Positions 7,303 through 38,074 of a stretch of DNA of 38,191 bases are shown piece after piece (positions within the stretch are counted from its first letter, which is position 1; each line of letters starts with the position of its first letter). The notes under the pieces were generated by a model that saw only the letters and a list, made by a program, of their open reading frames with translations, ran no database searches and was not told where the DNA came from. Position numbers and translations under genes: made by a program. The DNA lies in assembly GCA_013336285.1 (NCBI GenBank), contig JAAXTX010000008.1, positions 1 to 38,191 of the forward strand, in the 5' to 3' direction. The DNA comes from Candidatus Moraniibacteriota bacterium (GTDB lineage Bacteria > Patescibacteriota > Minisyncoccia > Moranbacterales > UBA1568).

Positions 7303-7440
7303 TTATTGGAAAATTTCTTGAAACCGTCATCATTTTCGAACCGGCGTCAGGACCATGCGATCCCGCCACCCTACTCCGTCCCATCGTTACGGTTCCGACG
7401 ATCATCAGTCCGTTTCGTTCCTCTTTCCGCGCTTTTCGGG

Positions 7441-7446
7441 TACAAT
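7441..7446 (+). promoter_or_regulatory. Probable -10 element of the tandem PilB gene
   Basis: TACAAT about 60 nt before the ATG at 7508. The -35 region (TTCCTC, 17 nt upstream) is weak. Confidence 0.4.
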
Positions 7447-7507
7447 AGGGTGCATAGACGGCCGCTATGCTTTCGCATGGTCCGATCAAGAACTAAACAC
7501 CCACACT

Positions 7508-10500
7508 ATGGTACAGGTCGTGAATTCGACCGCCTCGGATTGGCGGGATAAGAAACTTCAGAAAACCGAGGATACGCTCAAAGGCCTCGCGGGAACCTCG
7601 AAGGAACAGGCGGCCGCGAGACTTGCAGCCGAGGTCGGATTACCGTATTTCGATCTCCATATCTTTCCCGCCAGTCAGGAGGACGTGACGCTCGTTTCAG
7701 AAGAAAACGCGAAGAAACATCAGATCGCCGTTTTTGAAAAAAGCGGGGGGAAGATCCGCGTCGGATTCGCAGACCCTAAAAACTCCGCTGCGGCGGATTT
7801 CGTGGAATCGCTTGCGGACGATCGGGGTTGGCAGGTGGAGGCATACGTCGTCTCCGTTCCCTCCCTTGAAAAAGTCTGGCAGATCTACGACGAGGCACCG
7901 CTTATCAAGGATTTCGATCTTCTTCGGGTCTCGCTGTCCGGGGAGGAACTCAAGCGCTTCGAGGAAAACTTCAGCGCTATCATGAAACTTAAGAATGCCT
8001 CGAAGGTATCCATCTCCGAGACTATCGAGATCATTCTTGCCGGAGCCAACAAACTTCAGGCGAGTGATATCCATATCGAACCCGAAAAGGAAGGTGTCCG
8101 TCTCCGTTACCGTATCGATGGCGTGCTTCAGGATATCGGGTCGATCTCGGCGGACATCTATCGGCTCACGCTCTCCCGGGTAAAAATGCTTTCTCGCATG
8201 AAGATAAACATCCGTGACCGGGCACAGGACGGGCATTTCGGTATTTCGCTCGACGGGAAACTGATCGACCTTCGCGTCAACATCATCCCGGGAAATCACG
8301 GGGAGAGCATCAACATGCGTATCCTCAATAACGACGATGTCCTCTATGACATGACGAAGCTCGGCATTCAGGGAGCGACCTACGACAAGATCAAGCAAGA
8401 GACGGAAAAGCCACACGGCATGATCATCAATACCGGTCCGACCGGCGCCGGAAAGACGACGACCCTCTACAGCATATTGCGTACGGTGAACAGTCCTGAC
8501 AAAAAAATCATCACCGTCGAGGACCCTATCGAGTATCAGATCCAGGGTATCGTGCAGACCGAGGTCTCCAAGGGCCGCGAGTACGGATTCGCGACGGCGC
8601 TTCGCGCGATTGTCCGCCAGGACCCCGACGTGATCCTTATCGGTGAAATCCGCGATGATGAGACGGCGGAAATCGCCGTGAACGCGGCTATGACCGGACA
8701 TCTGGTCCTCTCCACCGTCCATGCCAACACCGCTCCGGGTGCCATTCCGCGTCTTATCGAACTCGGAGCGAAGCCATCCGCTCTCGCGTCGGCACTGAAC
8801 GTCGTCATCGGGCAGCGTCTCGTCCGAAAACTGTGCGAGAAGTGCAAGGAATCCTATCTGCCGGCCGAAGAGACGATAGATTCGCTTCGGGAAATACTCT
8901 CGATCGTTTCTCCGAAAGCGAAGGTCGAGATACCCCGTGAAATCACCGAGCTCTGGAATCCGAAGGGGTGTCCCTCCTGCGGAATGACCGGCTATCACGG
9001 CCGGATAGGAATTTATGAGTCTTTCACCATTTCCAAGGATATCGAGAAAGCCATCGTCGAACTGGGAACGGAACGTGAAATCATGAGAGTGGCCATAGAA
9101 GAAGGCATGGTGACCATGGTCCAAGACGGCATTCTCAAGGCAATTCATGGAACGACCTCCCTCGAGGAAGTGTGGCGCGCGACTGGACAGAAGAACGCGC
9201 TTCGGGAAATCTATGCAGAACTCATGCCGAGCATCCTCTCACGTACCTCTTTGCTTTCCAAGGAGACATTCGAGGCCGCGCGTGCGCATCTTACGACTCT
9301 CGAGGAATTCGGGCGATACGCCAAAACCCTTGGGGACAGCGACGTTTTACGCTCCATTTTCGCGGCCGCTCTCCTGCTTAAGGCCGGCGATATCCATCTC
9401 GAACCGGCGGATCAGGAGGTCCTGGTCAGGTTGCGCATCGACGGAATACTCCAAACCATAGCCGCGCTTCCGAAAGTCACGTATCCTCAGATACTCGGTG
9501 AGATTAAGCTCTGGAGCGGTCTCAAGTCCGGCCAACGCTCGGGTGTCGTGGACGGACGTTTCTCACTCACAGTGAAAGAACCTTACGAGCATATCCCGGC
9601 AGGCACCACCGACTTCCGTCTCTCCATAATCCTTGGGGGATTCGGGGAAACCGCCGTAATGCGTATTCTCAACAACTCACTCACGACACTCTCGCTCGAG
9701 TCTCTCTCTTTCCGACCCGAGAACCTTGTACGGATTCGCGAGGGTTTGAAGAGAGCGAACGGCATCATGATCAACACGGGCCCGACAGGCTCGGGAAAGA
9801 CGACGACCCTGTACAGCATGCTGTCGAAACTCAACAAGCCGGAAGTGAAAATCATCACTGTCGAGGACCCGATCGAATACCGTCTATCGGGAATCCTCCA
9901 GACGCAGATGAATCCGGAAGAGGGCTATACGTTTTCCGAAGCGCTACGCGCATTACTCCGTCAGAATCCCGACATCCTCATGATCGGCGAAATACGGGAT
10001 GAGGATACGGCCAAGATAGCATTGCAATCGGCGGAGACCGGTCATCTCGTGCTGTCCACCATCCATGCCAACAGCGCCACGGGCGTCATTCCCAGATTCC
10101 TCGGCATGGGAGCTTCCCCGGACGAGATCGCGAATACGGTCATCTGCCTTATCTCGCAGCGTCTCGTGCGAAAACTGTGCGAACATTGCCGACAAGAGGA
10201 TGTACCGACCGCTGAAGATTTGGATCTCATCGACCGCGTATTGAAAAAGGTTCCGGAGAATATCGGCGGCCAGGCAAGGACGGAAAAAAAGATTTGGAAG
10301 ACGACAGGATGCGAACGGTGCAACGGAACCGGATATACCGGACAGATCGTTCTCTCGGAAGTCCTCTCGATGGATCCTGATATCGAGGAACTCATCACAA
10401 CGGGAGCACTCATGTCGCAAATCGAGGAGACTGCGATAAAAAACGGTATGTTGACACTCGCGGGAGACGGCGTCCTGGCCGTACTCGAGGGCCGGACGAC

Positions 10501-10534
10501 TCTCGACGAGATCCGTCGCGTAACAAATGAGTGA
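7508..10534 (+). CDS. Tandem PilB/GspE-type secretion ATPase (two complete ATPase modules in one chain)
   Basis: 1008 aa, nearly twice the usual PilB length of about 570. An N-terminal T2SSE_N-like domain (about residues 1-140) is followed by two full GspE-type modules. Module 1 has GPTGAGKTTT from residue 310, Walker B ILIGEIRDDET, a His box with STVHANT, and a four-Cys zinc motif (CEKC ... CPSC). Module 2 has GPTGSGKTTT from residue 758, ILMIGEIRDEDT, STIHANS and CEHC ... CERC. Both keep all key residues, so both may be active. The second module lacks its own N1 domain. PilB drives type IV pilus extension as a hexamer; here three chains could form a six-module ring (inference). No pilC, pilT or pilin genes adjoin it. 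The track ORF starts earlier (7355), but the ATG at 7508 fits the -10 at 7441. It ends before a bidirectional terminator. Confidence 0.9.
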   Translation: MVQVVNSTASDWRDKKLQKTEDTLKGLAGTSKEQAAARLAAEVGLPYFDLHIFPASQEDVTLVSEENAKKHQIAVFEKSGGKIRVGFADPKNSAAADFVESLADDRGWQVEAYVVSVPSLEKVWQIYDEAPLIKDFDLLRVSLSGEELKRFEENFSAIMKLKNASKVSISETIEIILAGANKLQASDIHIEPEKEGVRLRYRIDGVLQDIGSISADIYRLTLSRVKMLSRMKINIRDRAQDGHFGISLDGKLIDLRVNIIPGNHGESINMRILNNDDVLYDMTKLGIQGATYDKIKQETEKPHGMIINTGPTGAGKTTTLYSILRTVNSPDKKIITVEDPIEYQIQGIVQTEVSKGREYGFATALRAIVRQDPDVILIGEIRDDETAEIAVNAAMTGHLVLSTVHANTAPGAIPRLIELGAKPSALASALNVVIGQRLVRKLCEKCKESYLPAEETIDSLREILSIVSPKAKVEIPREITELWNPKGCPSCGMTGYHGRIGIYESFTISKDIEKAIVELGTEREIMRVAIEEGMVTMVQDGILKAIHGTTSLEEVWRATGQKNALREIYAELMPSILSRTSLLSKETFEAARAHLTTLEEFGRYAKTLGDSDVLRSIFAAALLLKAGDIHLEPADQEVLVRLRIDGILQTIAALPKVTYPQILGEIKLWSGLKSGQRSGVVDGRFSLTVKEPYEHIPAGTTDFRLSIILGGFGETAVMRILNNSLTTLSLESLSFRPENLVRIREGLKRANGIMINTGPTGSGKTTTLYSMLSKLNKPEVKIITVEDPIEYRLSGILQTQMNPEEGYTFSEALRALLRQNPDILMIGEIRDEDTAKIALQSAETGHLVLSTIHANSATGVIPRFLGMGASPDEIANTVICLISQRLVRKLCEHCRQEDVPTAEDLDLIDRVLKKVPENIGGQARTEKKIWKTTGCERCNGTGYTGQIVLSEVLSMDPDIEELITTGALMSQIEETAIKNGMLTLAGDGVLAVLEGRTTLDEIRRVTNE

Positions 10535-10554: not shown

Positions 10555-10586
10555 AAAAAAACTCCGCCAATATGGGCGGAGTTTTT
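10555..10586. terminator. Bidirectional terminator between the tandem ATPase and the minus-strand RNA
   Basis: Stem ACTCCGCC/GGCGGAGT with T-runs on both strands: five T on plus, and seven T when read on minus. It serves the ATPase gene on plus and the structured RNA on minus. Confidence 0.85.
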
Positions 10587-10848
10587 GTGGAAAAAACGTT
10601 CAGCTGCAGGCAATCCGAAGCATTAAGAACGCCTCGGCAAGGAGCAGTGTCGAGGTATGGCAGAGCCGAGACCCCACCACCCATGTCTGGACAACTCGCA
10701 CTTCCCGATATCCGTGACATTTCACGAACAACGGAAAGTGCGAGAGAAAGCCCCCAGTCTTGAGGATAAAAGATAGTAATCCCCAATTTGCCTGCAGGTG
10801 AACGATCATTCCGTCACTATCGGAAGGCGCTGATCGCTCTCGATGTGA
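10587..10848 (-). ncRNA. Candidate structured non-coding RNA with 6S-like architecture
   Basis: A complete minus-strand transcription unit without a convincing ORF. The promoter is TTGACA-17-TAGGAT at 10883-10855, and the end is a T7 terminator at 10586-10555. A long closing stem joins GTTCAcCTGCAGGCAA (about 10803-10788) with TTGCCTGCAGcTGAAC (about 10614-10599), with one C-C mismatch. Inside is CTCGCACTT/AAGTGCGAG enclosing CGTGA/TCACG (about 10696-10745), plus CTCGGC/GCCGAG nearer the 3' end. A roughly 205-nt closed hairpin with interior bulges resembles 6S RNA in size and shape. I cannot match a 6S consensus, and RNase P, SRP and tmRNA signatures are absent. ORF 9953-10786 on this strand is mostly a shadow of the ATPase. 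Confidence 0.5.
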
Positions 10849-10854
10849 CTGGGA

Positions 10855-10883
10855 ATCCTATCATGGCTTTGTATTTATGTCAA
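10855..10883 (-). promoter_or_regulatory. Consensus promoter for the minus-strand RNA
   Basis: Minus strand -35 TTGACA (10883-10878), 17-nt spacer, -10 TAGGAT (10860-10855). It overlaps the ruvB promoter on the other strand. Confidence 0.65.
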
Positions 10884-10896
10884 GTGATGGTAGAAT
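10869..10896 (+). promoter_or_regulatory. Probable ruvB promoter
   Basis: TTGTAT, 16-nt spacer, TAGAAT at 10891-10896, with the ruvB ATG at 10947. It overlaps the opposing promoter of the structured RNA, so the two transcripts may interfere. Confidence 0.5.
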
Positions 10897-10946: not shown

Positions 10947-11956
<1,010 letters not shown>

Positions 11957-11960
<4 letters not shown>

Positions 11961-37304: not shown

Positions 37305-37388
37305 GCCCAGGTGGCGGAATTGGTATACGCGCTAGCTTGAGGTGCTAGTTCCCGCAAGGGATTGGAGGTTCGAGTCCTCTCTTGGGCA
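37305..37388 (+). tRNA. tRNA-Leu (GAG)
   Basis: 84 nt with acceptor GCCCAGG/CTTGGGC, a long variable arm and anticodon loop TTGAGGT giving GAG. CCA is not encoded (CA follows the discriminator A). It lies directly after rplS. Confidence 0.95.
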
Positions 37389-37513
37389 CAACGGAACGGA
37401 GTGGAGTTGGGATGAAGAAACAAGCCAACGGTTTGGCTTGTGTGAGGACGAGAAGGCCGGAGCGAAGTGAGGCGGGGCTGGAAGCGATTCTTGCTTCGGG
37501 AATCGACTCTGGC

Positions 37514-37533
37514 CGAGTCCTCTCATGGGCACA
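37514..37533 (+). repeat. Partial copy of the tRNA-Leu 3' end
   Basis: CGAGTCCTCTCATGGGCACA repeats the tRNA-Leu 3' end at 37371-37390 with one mismatch (19/20). Between the copies lie a 9-bp ACAAGCCAA/TTGGCTTGT hairpin (about 37420-37441) and a CGATTC/GAATCG hairpin. It resembles a tRNA-3'-end duplication as left by integration or by tRNA-gene decay. Nothing in the 125-nt interval looks like an integrase. Confidence 0.6.
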
Positions 37534-37543
37534 GATAGATGTG

Positions 37544-37569
37544 AAAAGAACAGGCACCCTGTTCTTTTT
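37544..37569 (+). terminator. Terminator after the tRNA-Leu segment
   Basis: Stem AAGAACAGG/CCTGTTCTT followed by T-run. It separates rplS/tRNA-Leu from tRNA-Val. Confidence 0.75.
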
Positions 37570-37588
37570 GCTTGATAAAGGCAGAGTC

Positions 37589-37616
37589 TTGCTAATTTCT
37601 CACCATTTTGTACAAT
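37589..37616 (+). promoter_or_regulatory. Promoter for tRNA-Val
   Basis: TTGCTA, 16-nt spacer, TACAAT at 37611-37616. The tRNA begins at 37631. Confidence 0.55.
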
Positions 37617-37630
37617 AGAAAAAGTCTTAT

Positions 37631-37704
37631 GCACGCTTAGCTCAGTTGGTTAGAGCACCTCGTTTACACCGAGGGGGTCCAAGGTTCGAGTCCTTGAGCG
37701 TGCA
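37631..37704 (+). tRNA. tRNA-Val (TAC)
   Basis: 74 nt with acceptor GCACGCT/AGCGTGC and anticodon loop TTTACAC giving TAC. CCA is not encoded. Confidence 0.95.
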
Positions 37705-37721
37705 CCGAAACCGTGTATAAT
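37694..37721 (+). promoter_or_regulatory. Possible promoter for tRNA-Phe inside the end of tRNA-Val
   Basis: TTGAGC within the T-arm of tRNA-Val, 16-nt spacer, TATAAT at 37716-37721. The tRNA-Phe starts at 37735. Confidence 0.5.
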
Positions 37722-37734
37722 GAAAGTCATGGTC

Positions 37735-37806
37735 GCCTGGGTAGCTCAGTGGTAGAGCAGAGGACTGAAAATCCTCGTGTCGACAGTTCGATTCTGTCCC
37801 CAGGCA
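37735..37806 (+). tRNA. tRNA-Phe (GAA)
   Basis: 72 nt with acceptor GCCTGGG/CCCAGGC and anticodon loop CTGAAAA giving GAA. CCA is not encoded. Confidence 0.95.
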
Positions 37807-37815
37807 CAGGAATAT

Positions 37816-37850
37816 TGTGGATAAGTCGTGTATTGCGCCGGTTATCCACC
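37816..37850. other. Pair of inverted DnaA-box consensus sequences between tRNA genes
   Basis: TGTGGATAA (37816-37824) and TTATCCACC (37842-37850) form an 8-bp inverted repeat GTGGATAA/TTATCCAC. The first is an exact complement of the consensus box TTATCCACA. It may be a DnaA-binding or titration site, or simply a hairpin in the tRNA spacer. Confidence 0.45.
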
Positions 37851-37872
37851 GTTTCCGGAATCCATATAAGCC

Positions 37873-37945
37873 GGGACTGTAGCTCAGCGGTTAGAGCAGG
37901 CGGCTCATAACCGCTTGGTCGCTGGTTCGAATCCAGCCAGTCCCA
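37873..37945 (+). tRNA. tRNA-Met (CAT), elongator type
   Basis: 73 nt with acceptor GGGACTG/CAGTCCC and anticodon loop CTCATAA giving CAT. The stem GCGG/CCGC fits elongator Met. A lysidine-modified tRNA-Ile(CAT) cannot be excluded by eye; the acceptor does not look like initiator Met. Confidence 0.85.
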
Positions 37946-38002
37946 CAGTCGGTGAAGATCGGTGAAAAGCGGGCCTGCCACGCCGAAGCGCGGAGCGCGA
38001 AG

Positions 38003-38074
38003 GCGGGTATCGTATAGCGGCTATTACGTGTCCTTGCCAAGGACAAAATACGGGTTCGACTCCCGTTACCCGCT
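38003..38074 (+). tRNA. tRNA-Gly (GCC)
   Basis: 72 nt with acceptor GCGGGTA/TACCCGC and anticodon loop TTGCCAA giving GCC. CCA is not encoded. A GC-rich spacer of about 57 nt separates it from tRNA-Met. Confidence 0.93.

Follow-up and report, generated by a model that had tools for sequence, protein, structure and literature searches.

A conserved structured RNA encoded beside ruvB in Candidatus Moranbacteria and other Patescibacteria

Introduction

In 6S RNA, conservation is expected at the central bulge rather than in the apical arm. Its published layout comprises a closing stem, a 3'-side junction hairpin and an apical arm (PMC8414754). In lactic acid bacteria the 6S RNA adjoins rarA, which specifies a replication/recombination ATPase (PMC8414754). 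One of the shortest 6S RNAs is about 160 nt long, and Ms1 RNA, at about 300 nt, has extra hairpins in its central region (PMC9130861).

Patescibacteria (the Candidate Phyla Radiation) account for a large share of bacterial diversity; their genomes are very small, and few of them have been cultured. The absence of both ffh and ffs from Parcubacteria has already been published (PMC4508563). The window analysed here is a 38,191-nt stretch from a Candidatus Moraniibacteriota bacterium (assembly GCA_013336285.1, contig JAAXTX010000008.1). An original prediction made from this sequence had placed a minus-strand RNA gene of about 300 nt next to ruvB and had compared its size and shape with those of 6S RNA. 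The RNA bears on whether Patescibacteria have 6S-type control of RNA polymerase.

Results

Predicted transcription unit

A promoter on the minus strand of the window (10855–10883) contains a −35 element TTGACA (10883–10878), a 17-nt spacer and a −10 element TAGGAT (10860–10855). These elements had been recognized in the original prediction, and the promoter has in addition the TG of an extended −10. An intrinsic terminator was located at 10555–10586 from sequence and fold. Its minus-strand stem is followed by seven U residues ending at 10555, again as predicted, and it would work for both strands, serving the RNA as well as the convergent pilB-like gene. From the positions of the promoter and terminator, the minus-strand transcript is predicted to extend over about 293 nt (10555–10848), with the start placed 7 nt past the −10 element and the end within the U-run.

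Promoter-like sites were observed twice in the window against 1.5 expected; individual promoter-type elements, taken alone, are not rare. The composite of an exact TTGACA, a −10 element and a stem with 13 or more pairs around 120–300 nt occurred once in the window, at the RNA locus, and in none of 60 dinucleotide shuffles. Almost every locus from the order Ca. Moranbacteria retains a TTGACA-17-TGnTA promoter upstream of the RNA, and a TTGACA-type promoter also precedes several distant family members.

The RNA gene is flanked by two plus-strand genes. ruvB (10947–11960; RuvB_N E = 3e-80, AAA_lid_4 and RuvB_C) is divergent. A −10-like TAGAAT that we assign to the ruvB promoter by its sequence is found at 10891–10896 on the plus strand, and a similar element is kept in relatives. 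The −35 element of the RNA promoter falls within the spacer of this ruvB-directed promoter, so that the overlap of the two opposing promoters was correctly anticipated. The neighbour on the other side is a convergent ORF (7355–10534) of 1059 aa with an MshEN domain followed by tandem T2SSE (PilB/GspE) ATPase domains. The ORF is apparently a fusion of two secretion ATPases. Elsewhere in the window, five tRNA genes are clustered at 37305–38074, near the contig end. A cis-regulatory leader, either a riboswitch or a protein leader, was considered for the RNA and rejected, because no same-strand gene lies directly downstream; the convergent pilB-like ORF is found there instead, with the terminator between the two.

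Structure and covariation

The 296-nt strand folded at −140.4 kcal/mol, compared with −89.5 ± 5.3 kcal/mol for shuffled sequences (z = −9.7), and none of 200 shuffles was as good. Two covariance models, R1 and R2, delimited a conserved core at 10597–10805 on the minus strand. R1, which has the window copy among its seeds, scored this copy at 121.3 bits (E = 1e-27), and R2, for which the window copy was not a seed, scored it at 93.3 bits (E = 4e-18), both E-values being rough owing to a short calibration.

The conserved core parts are P1, P3, P5 and P6, with P2 and P7 occurring in most members. All positions given below are on the minus strand. The closing stem P1 is formed by a 5' arm at 10790–10804 (CUGCAGGC, for which many relatives have CUGUAGAC) and a 3' arm at 10597–10611. 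It contains 14 pairs and one C/C mismatch, in agreement with the singly mismatched closing stem described originally, and one or two more pairs lie further inside. The P2 hairpin (10760–10786) has a loop containing CUAUCUUU at 10776–10769; all 18 loci in the seed alignment of the order share these bases, and outside the order they vary. Hairpin P7 (10615–10637) lies before the 3' arm of P1 and is absent in Andersenbacteria-type members.

The apical arm consists of P3, P5 and P6, with a conserved internal loop (CAGAU..GG facing CCUC) and a UUCG-type tip. In P3, GGGGGC (10750–10755) pairs with GCUCCU (10640–10645), and relatives have the variants GGGAAC/GUUCC and GGUUGC/GCAAC. The 5' strand of P5 (10680–10693) is made up of UGUC and the conserved internal-loop strand CAGAC-AUGGG; its 3' strand (10648–10656) is made up of GACA and the conserved internal-loop strand (A)CCUC. 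UGUC/GACA covaries with UAUC/GAUA, UGCC/GGCA and UUCC/GGAA. On the 3' side of P5, CCUCGACA is invariant or almost so within the order, and CCUC is widely conserved. Within the order the P2 loop (AUCU) could pair with the P5 loop (AGAU); the bases are invariant there, and the P2 loop differs outside the order. The apical helix P6 spans 10654–10682. One member (L015, 1319–1546) has a long hairpin of about 70 nt inserted in P6, and the tip of this helix, judged from that insert, is tolerant of expansion.

P4, a long hairpin at 10695–10744, was identified from the alignments as a lineage-specific insert; it measures 50–100 nt in some genera and is missing from several others. The apical stem-loop of the original prediction corresponds to P4: the hairpin exists, but it is not part of the conserved core. 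Similarly, the elements outlined in that prediction are present, but the structure has more parts than were first described (P1, P2, P3, P5, P6 and P7).

Relatives found by DNA search were aligned over a core of about 155 nt, which has 46 invariant columns (18 sequences, P4 insert set aside). In the 18-sequence set, 27 of 55 pairs had changes on both sides and 89.3% of cells were paired, a result that none of 500 shuffles equalled; slid structures were only 40–48% paired. Among 24 diverse sequences, changes on both sides were seen in 46 of 55 pairs with 89.2% of cells paired, in an alignment that was made by the model, leans to the model's own structure and contains many changes absent from the seed. 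This set gave 253 compensated cells versus 82 in shuffles, again with none of 500 shuffles matching it, and slid structures were 40–49% paired. For P1, both sides had changed in 8 of 14 pairs in the smaller set and 12 of 14 in the larger one; at one P1 pair, C-G is replaced by U-A in half of the sequences.

At several pairs most sequences have G-U, for which the other strand would give A-C, and covariance-model scores were far lower for the opposite strand. These two observations settle the strand. No reading frame through the core was open in all relatives on either strand, and a Pfam scan of two ORFs on the RNA strand gave no match. As compensatory changes exceed chance on a fixed strand, we conclude that the locus is a structured RNA gene. 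The RNA-gene reading of the original prediction is thus sustained by covariation across Candidate Phyla Radiation relatives, together with the promoter, single-copy conservation and synteny; a conserved protein frame, which would have counted against it, was found on neither strand.

Distribution and gene neighbourhood

By plain DNA search the RNA was recovered from 19 of the 37 related genomes. Within the order Ca. Moranbacteria, on which alone R1 was trained, this model gave hits in 99 of 111 genomes and in 54 of 58 genera, nearly always as one copy. In the class, 80 of 334 genomes were positive with the same model, as were 8 of 380 in the phylum, Andersenbacteria included, and the broader model R2 found the RNA in 29 of the same 380 phylum genomes, 14 of these outside the class; all of these counts are lower limits, as strict filters were applied in the large searches. 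The hosts are uncultured and represented mostly by metagenome-assembled genomes. A search of viral contigs with a strict motif gave no match.

In diverged members P2 and P7 are missing or shortened, and most of these RNAs are 101–135 nt long. The minimal members have cores of 101–120 nt, with a loop of about 10 nt on the 5' side of the junction. Two diverged copies occur in tandem in one genome of the order (L159, 83–223 and 242–383) and share one TTGACA-type promoter.

In nearly all class loci examined, as well as in Andersenbacteria and one further family, the RNA has ruvB as its divergent neighbour; its other neighbour in most class members is a convergent PilB-like gene. Among the 29 phylum hits, approximately 22 carry ruvB in their flanks (~1.5 kb), for which the chance expectation is well below 1%. 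Since the models contain no gene information, this synteny is an independent confirmation of homology. Two distant members, L151 and L155, are instead convergent with an ORF named VanW-like from its sequence, and the L155 RNA is also downstream of a ClpP-like gene.

Comparison with known RNA families

Scanning the window, its relatives and more distant relatives against Rfam yielded only scattered sub-threshold chance hits, which were driven by the terminator or located elsewhere. GcvB, for example, scored 22.4 bits where the cut-off is 42, and reflected the terminator and generic hairpins. Neither tmRNA (RF00023) nor RNase P RNA (RF00010) gave a model match at the locus, and each has its own gene (G000:C59 for tmRNA and G000:C61, 105 bits, for RNase P RNA). 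The family thus appears to be absent from Rfam. A literature search returned no paper on the RNA, a weak absence given the thin coverage of subscription journals.

The SRP RNA models RF00169 and RF01854 gave no match in the window or its relatives, and RF00169 had no match in any of the 380 Patescibacteria genomes under strict filters. This absence is broader than the published Parcubacteria result (PMC4508563). The Ffh M domain (PF02978) was found in 0 of 28 genomes (G000 and 27 related genomes), with the control positive in 14 of 14. Because Ffh is absent, the RNA cannot be canonical SRP RNA. A plus-strand sequence reminiscent of the SRP core, GGAAGGAGCAG, was rejected, as it is not conserved in relatives.

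RF00013 was searched for as the original prediction had proposed, and it gave no match in the window, either at the gathering cut-off or with E up to 10, and none in relatives. It also had no match in 18 related whole genomes, a search of limited sensitivity in which the control was positive in only 5 of 14 cases. On the 5' side of the junction, where 6S RNA would be expected to have a large single-stranded bulge as the template for its product RNA, the window copy and the order have the paired hairpin P2 with short unpaired joints. The resemblance suggested originally finds no support at the level of membership of the 6S family.

Discussion

We favour the interpretation, with a probability of roughly 60%, that this gene represents a new, housekeeping-type family of structured, stand-alone RNA acting in trans as a ribonucleoprotein component through its conserved apical arm. 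The RNA would have a strong sigma-70 promoter and a terminator of its own. The long closing stem P1 locks the two RNA ends together and may act as a clamp against exonucleases; in most members the junction bears two side hairpins, P2 and P7. Action in trans, rather than as a leader, is suggested because the next downstream gene is convergent. A role as the RNA part of a ribonucleoprotein is suggested by conservation, and the internal loop of the apical arm (CAGAU..GG/CCUC) may be where a protein or a second RNA docks. P2, P4 and P7 are probably lineage-specific additions, because they are variable or missing while the arm persists. Alternatively, P1 and the inserts could in principle act at the level of DNA where the divergent promoters lie; the G-U pairs favour RNA.

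For the trans-acting RNA, our first-choice candidate function is a 6S-like binding of RNA polymerase, and we infer that this is the best specific functional candidate while not filing the RNA as 6S. The proposal that it is these bacteria's own 6S-like RNA, diverged past recognition by Rfam, goes further and is in our view possible but rather doubtful. Such an RNA would bind the sigma-70 holoenzyme as an open-promoter mimic and be released by synthesis of a product RNA. The expected layout is found, with P1 as the closing stem, P7 as the 3'-side hairpin and P3-P5-P6 as the apical arm, although only this gross layout is common to the two. The promoter is of a strong, constitutive type, the location of 6S RNA beside rarA is a mild parallel to the ruvB neighbour, and without an RF00013 match in the related genomes the 6S role would be vacant. 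Against these points stand the failure of RF00013 itself, the hairpin in place of the bulge, and a pattern of conservation opposite to expectation, as P2 is the least conserved part of the family and the apical arm the most conserved. In addition, the minimal cores are shorter than one of the shortest 6S RNAs.

The persistence of the head-to-head arrangement across classes, with the −35 element of one promoter inside the other promoter, raises the question of whether the overlapping promoters or the transcript control ruvB and hence recombination repair. We think this unlikely, because transcription leads away from ruvB without entering its coding sequence, L151 and L155 retain the RNA without an adjacent ruvB, and promoter interference needs no such elaborate structure. 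It is more improbable still that the RNA stands in functionally for SRP RNA and performs part of protein targeting where SRP is lacking. The missing Ffh M domain, the empty SRP RNA models and the published absence (PMC4508563) would leave room for such a substitute, but they also remove Ffh as a binding partner, the SRP RNA families are unmatched in the window and relatives, and the coincidence of a missing system with a new RNA is weak evidence. Finally, the locus might be no RNA gene at all but a repeat, a small protein gene or a fold arising by chance, given that open frames of 60–70 codons occur on both strands in the window and promoter-like sites are common by themselves. This explanation can practically be dismissed: it is refuted by the covariation and opposed by the synteny and distribution, and the frames are broken in relatives and lack Pfam matches.

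Returning to a trans-acting ribonucleoprotein RNA, its retention in nearly every genome of the order despite much gene loss suggests that it is likely important. Opinion is evenly balanced on the wider proposition that it is a housekeeping ribonucleoprotein RNA not recognised before, found almost throughout at least one large order of Parcubacteria and occurring in several Patescibacteria lineages, with a function outside those of the known bacterial RNAs, in cells without SRP or a recognisable 6S RNA. The RNA is a defined target for tests of structure, partner and phenotype, and a covariance model would enable others to annotate it.

The RNA resembles 6S RNA (ssrS, RF00013) in being stand-alone, in having a similar size in the window and its own promoter and terminator, and in its conserved neighbour gene; it differs in that conservation resides in the apical arm rather than the bulge, and in its much shorter minimal members. 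Ms1, a 6S-related RNA of Actinobacteria that binds core RNA polymerase, is comparable in its length of about 300 nt and its additional hairpins in the central region, and was likewise detected through conserved gene order where sequence search had failed. However, its flanking genes and phyla are different, and it has no sequence or Rfam link to the RNA described here. The rod-like minimal members of 100–120 nt, and the status of a universal single-copy RNA, recall SRP RNA, but neither RF00169 nor RF01854 matches and the genomes are without Ffh. With respect to orphan structured RNAs known from comparative genomics, such as raiA, OLE, ROOL and GOLLD, the RNA has no Rfam match and differs in size and host range, but it shares with them conservation in single copy, a structure demonstrated by covariation and a function that was unknown at the time of discovery.
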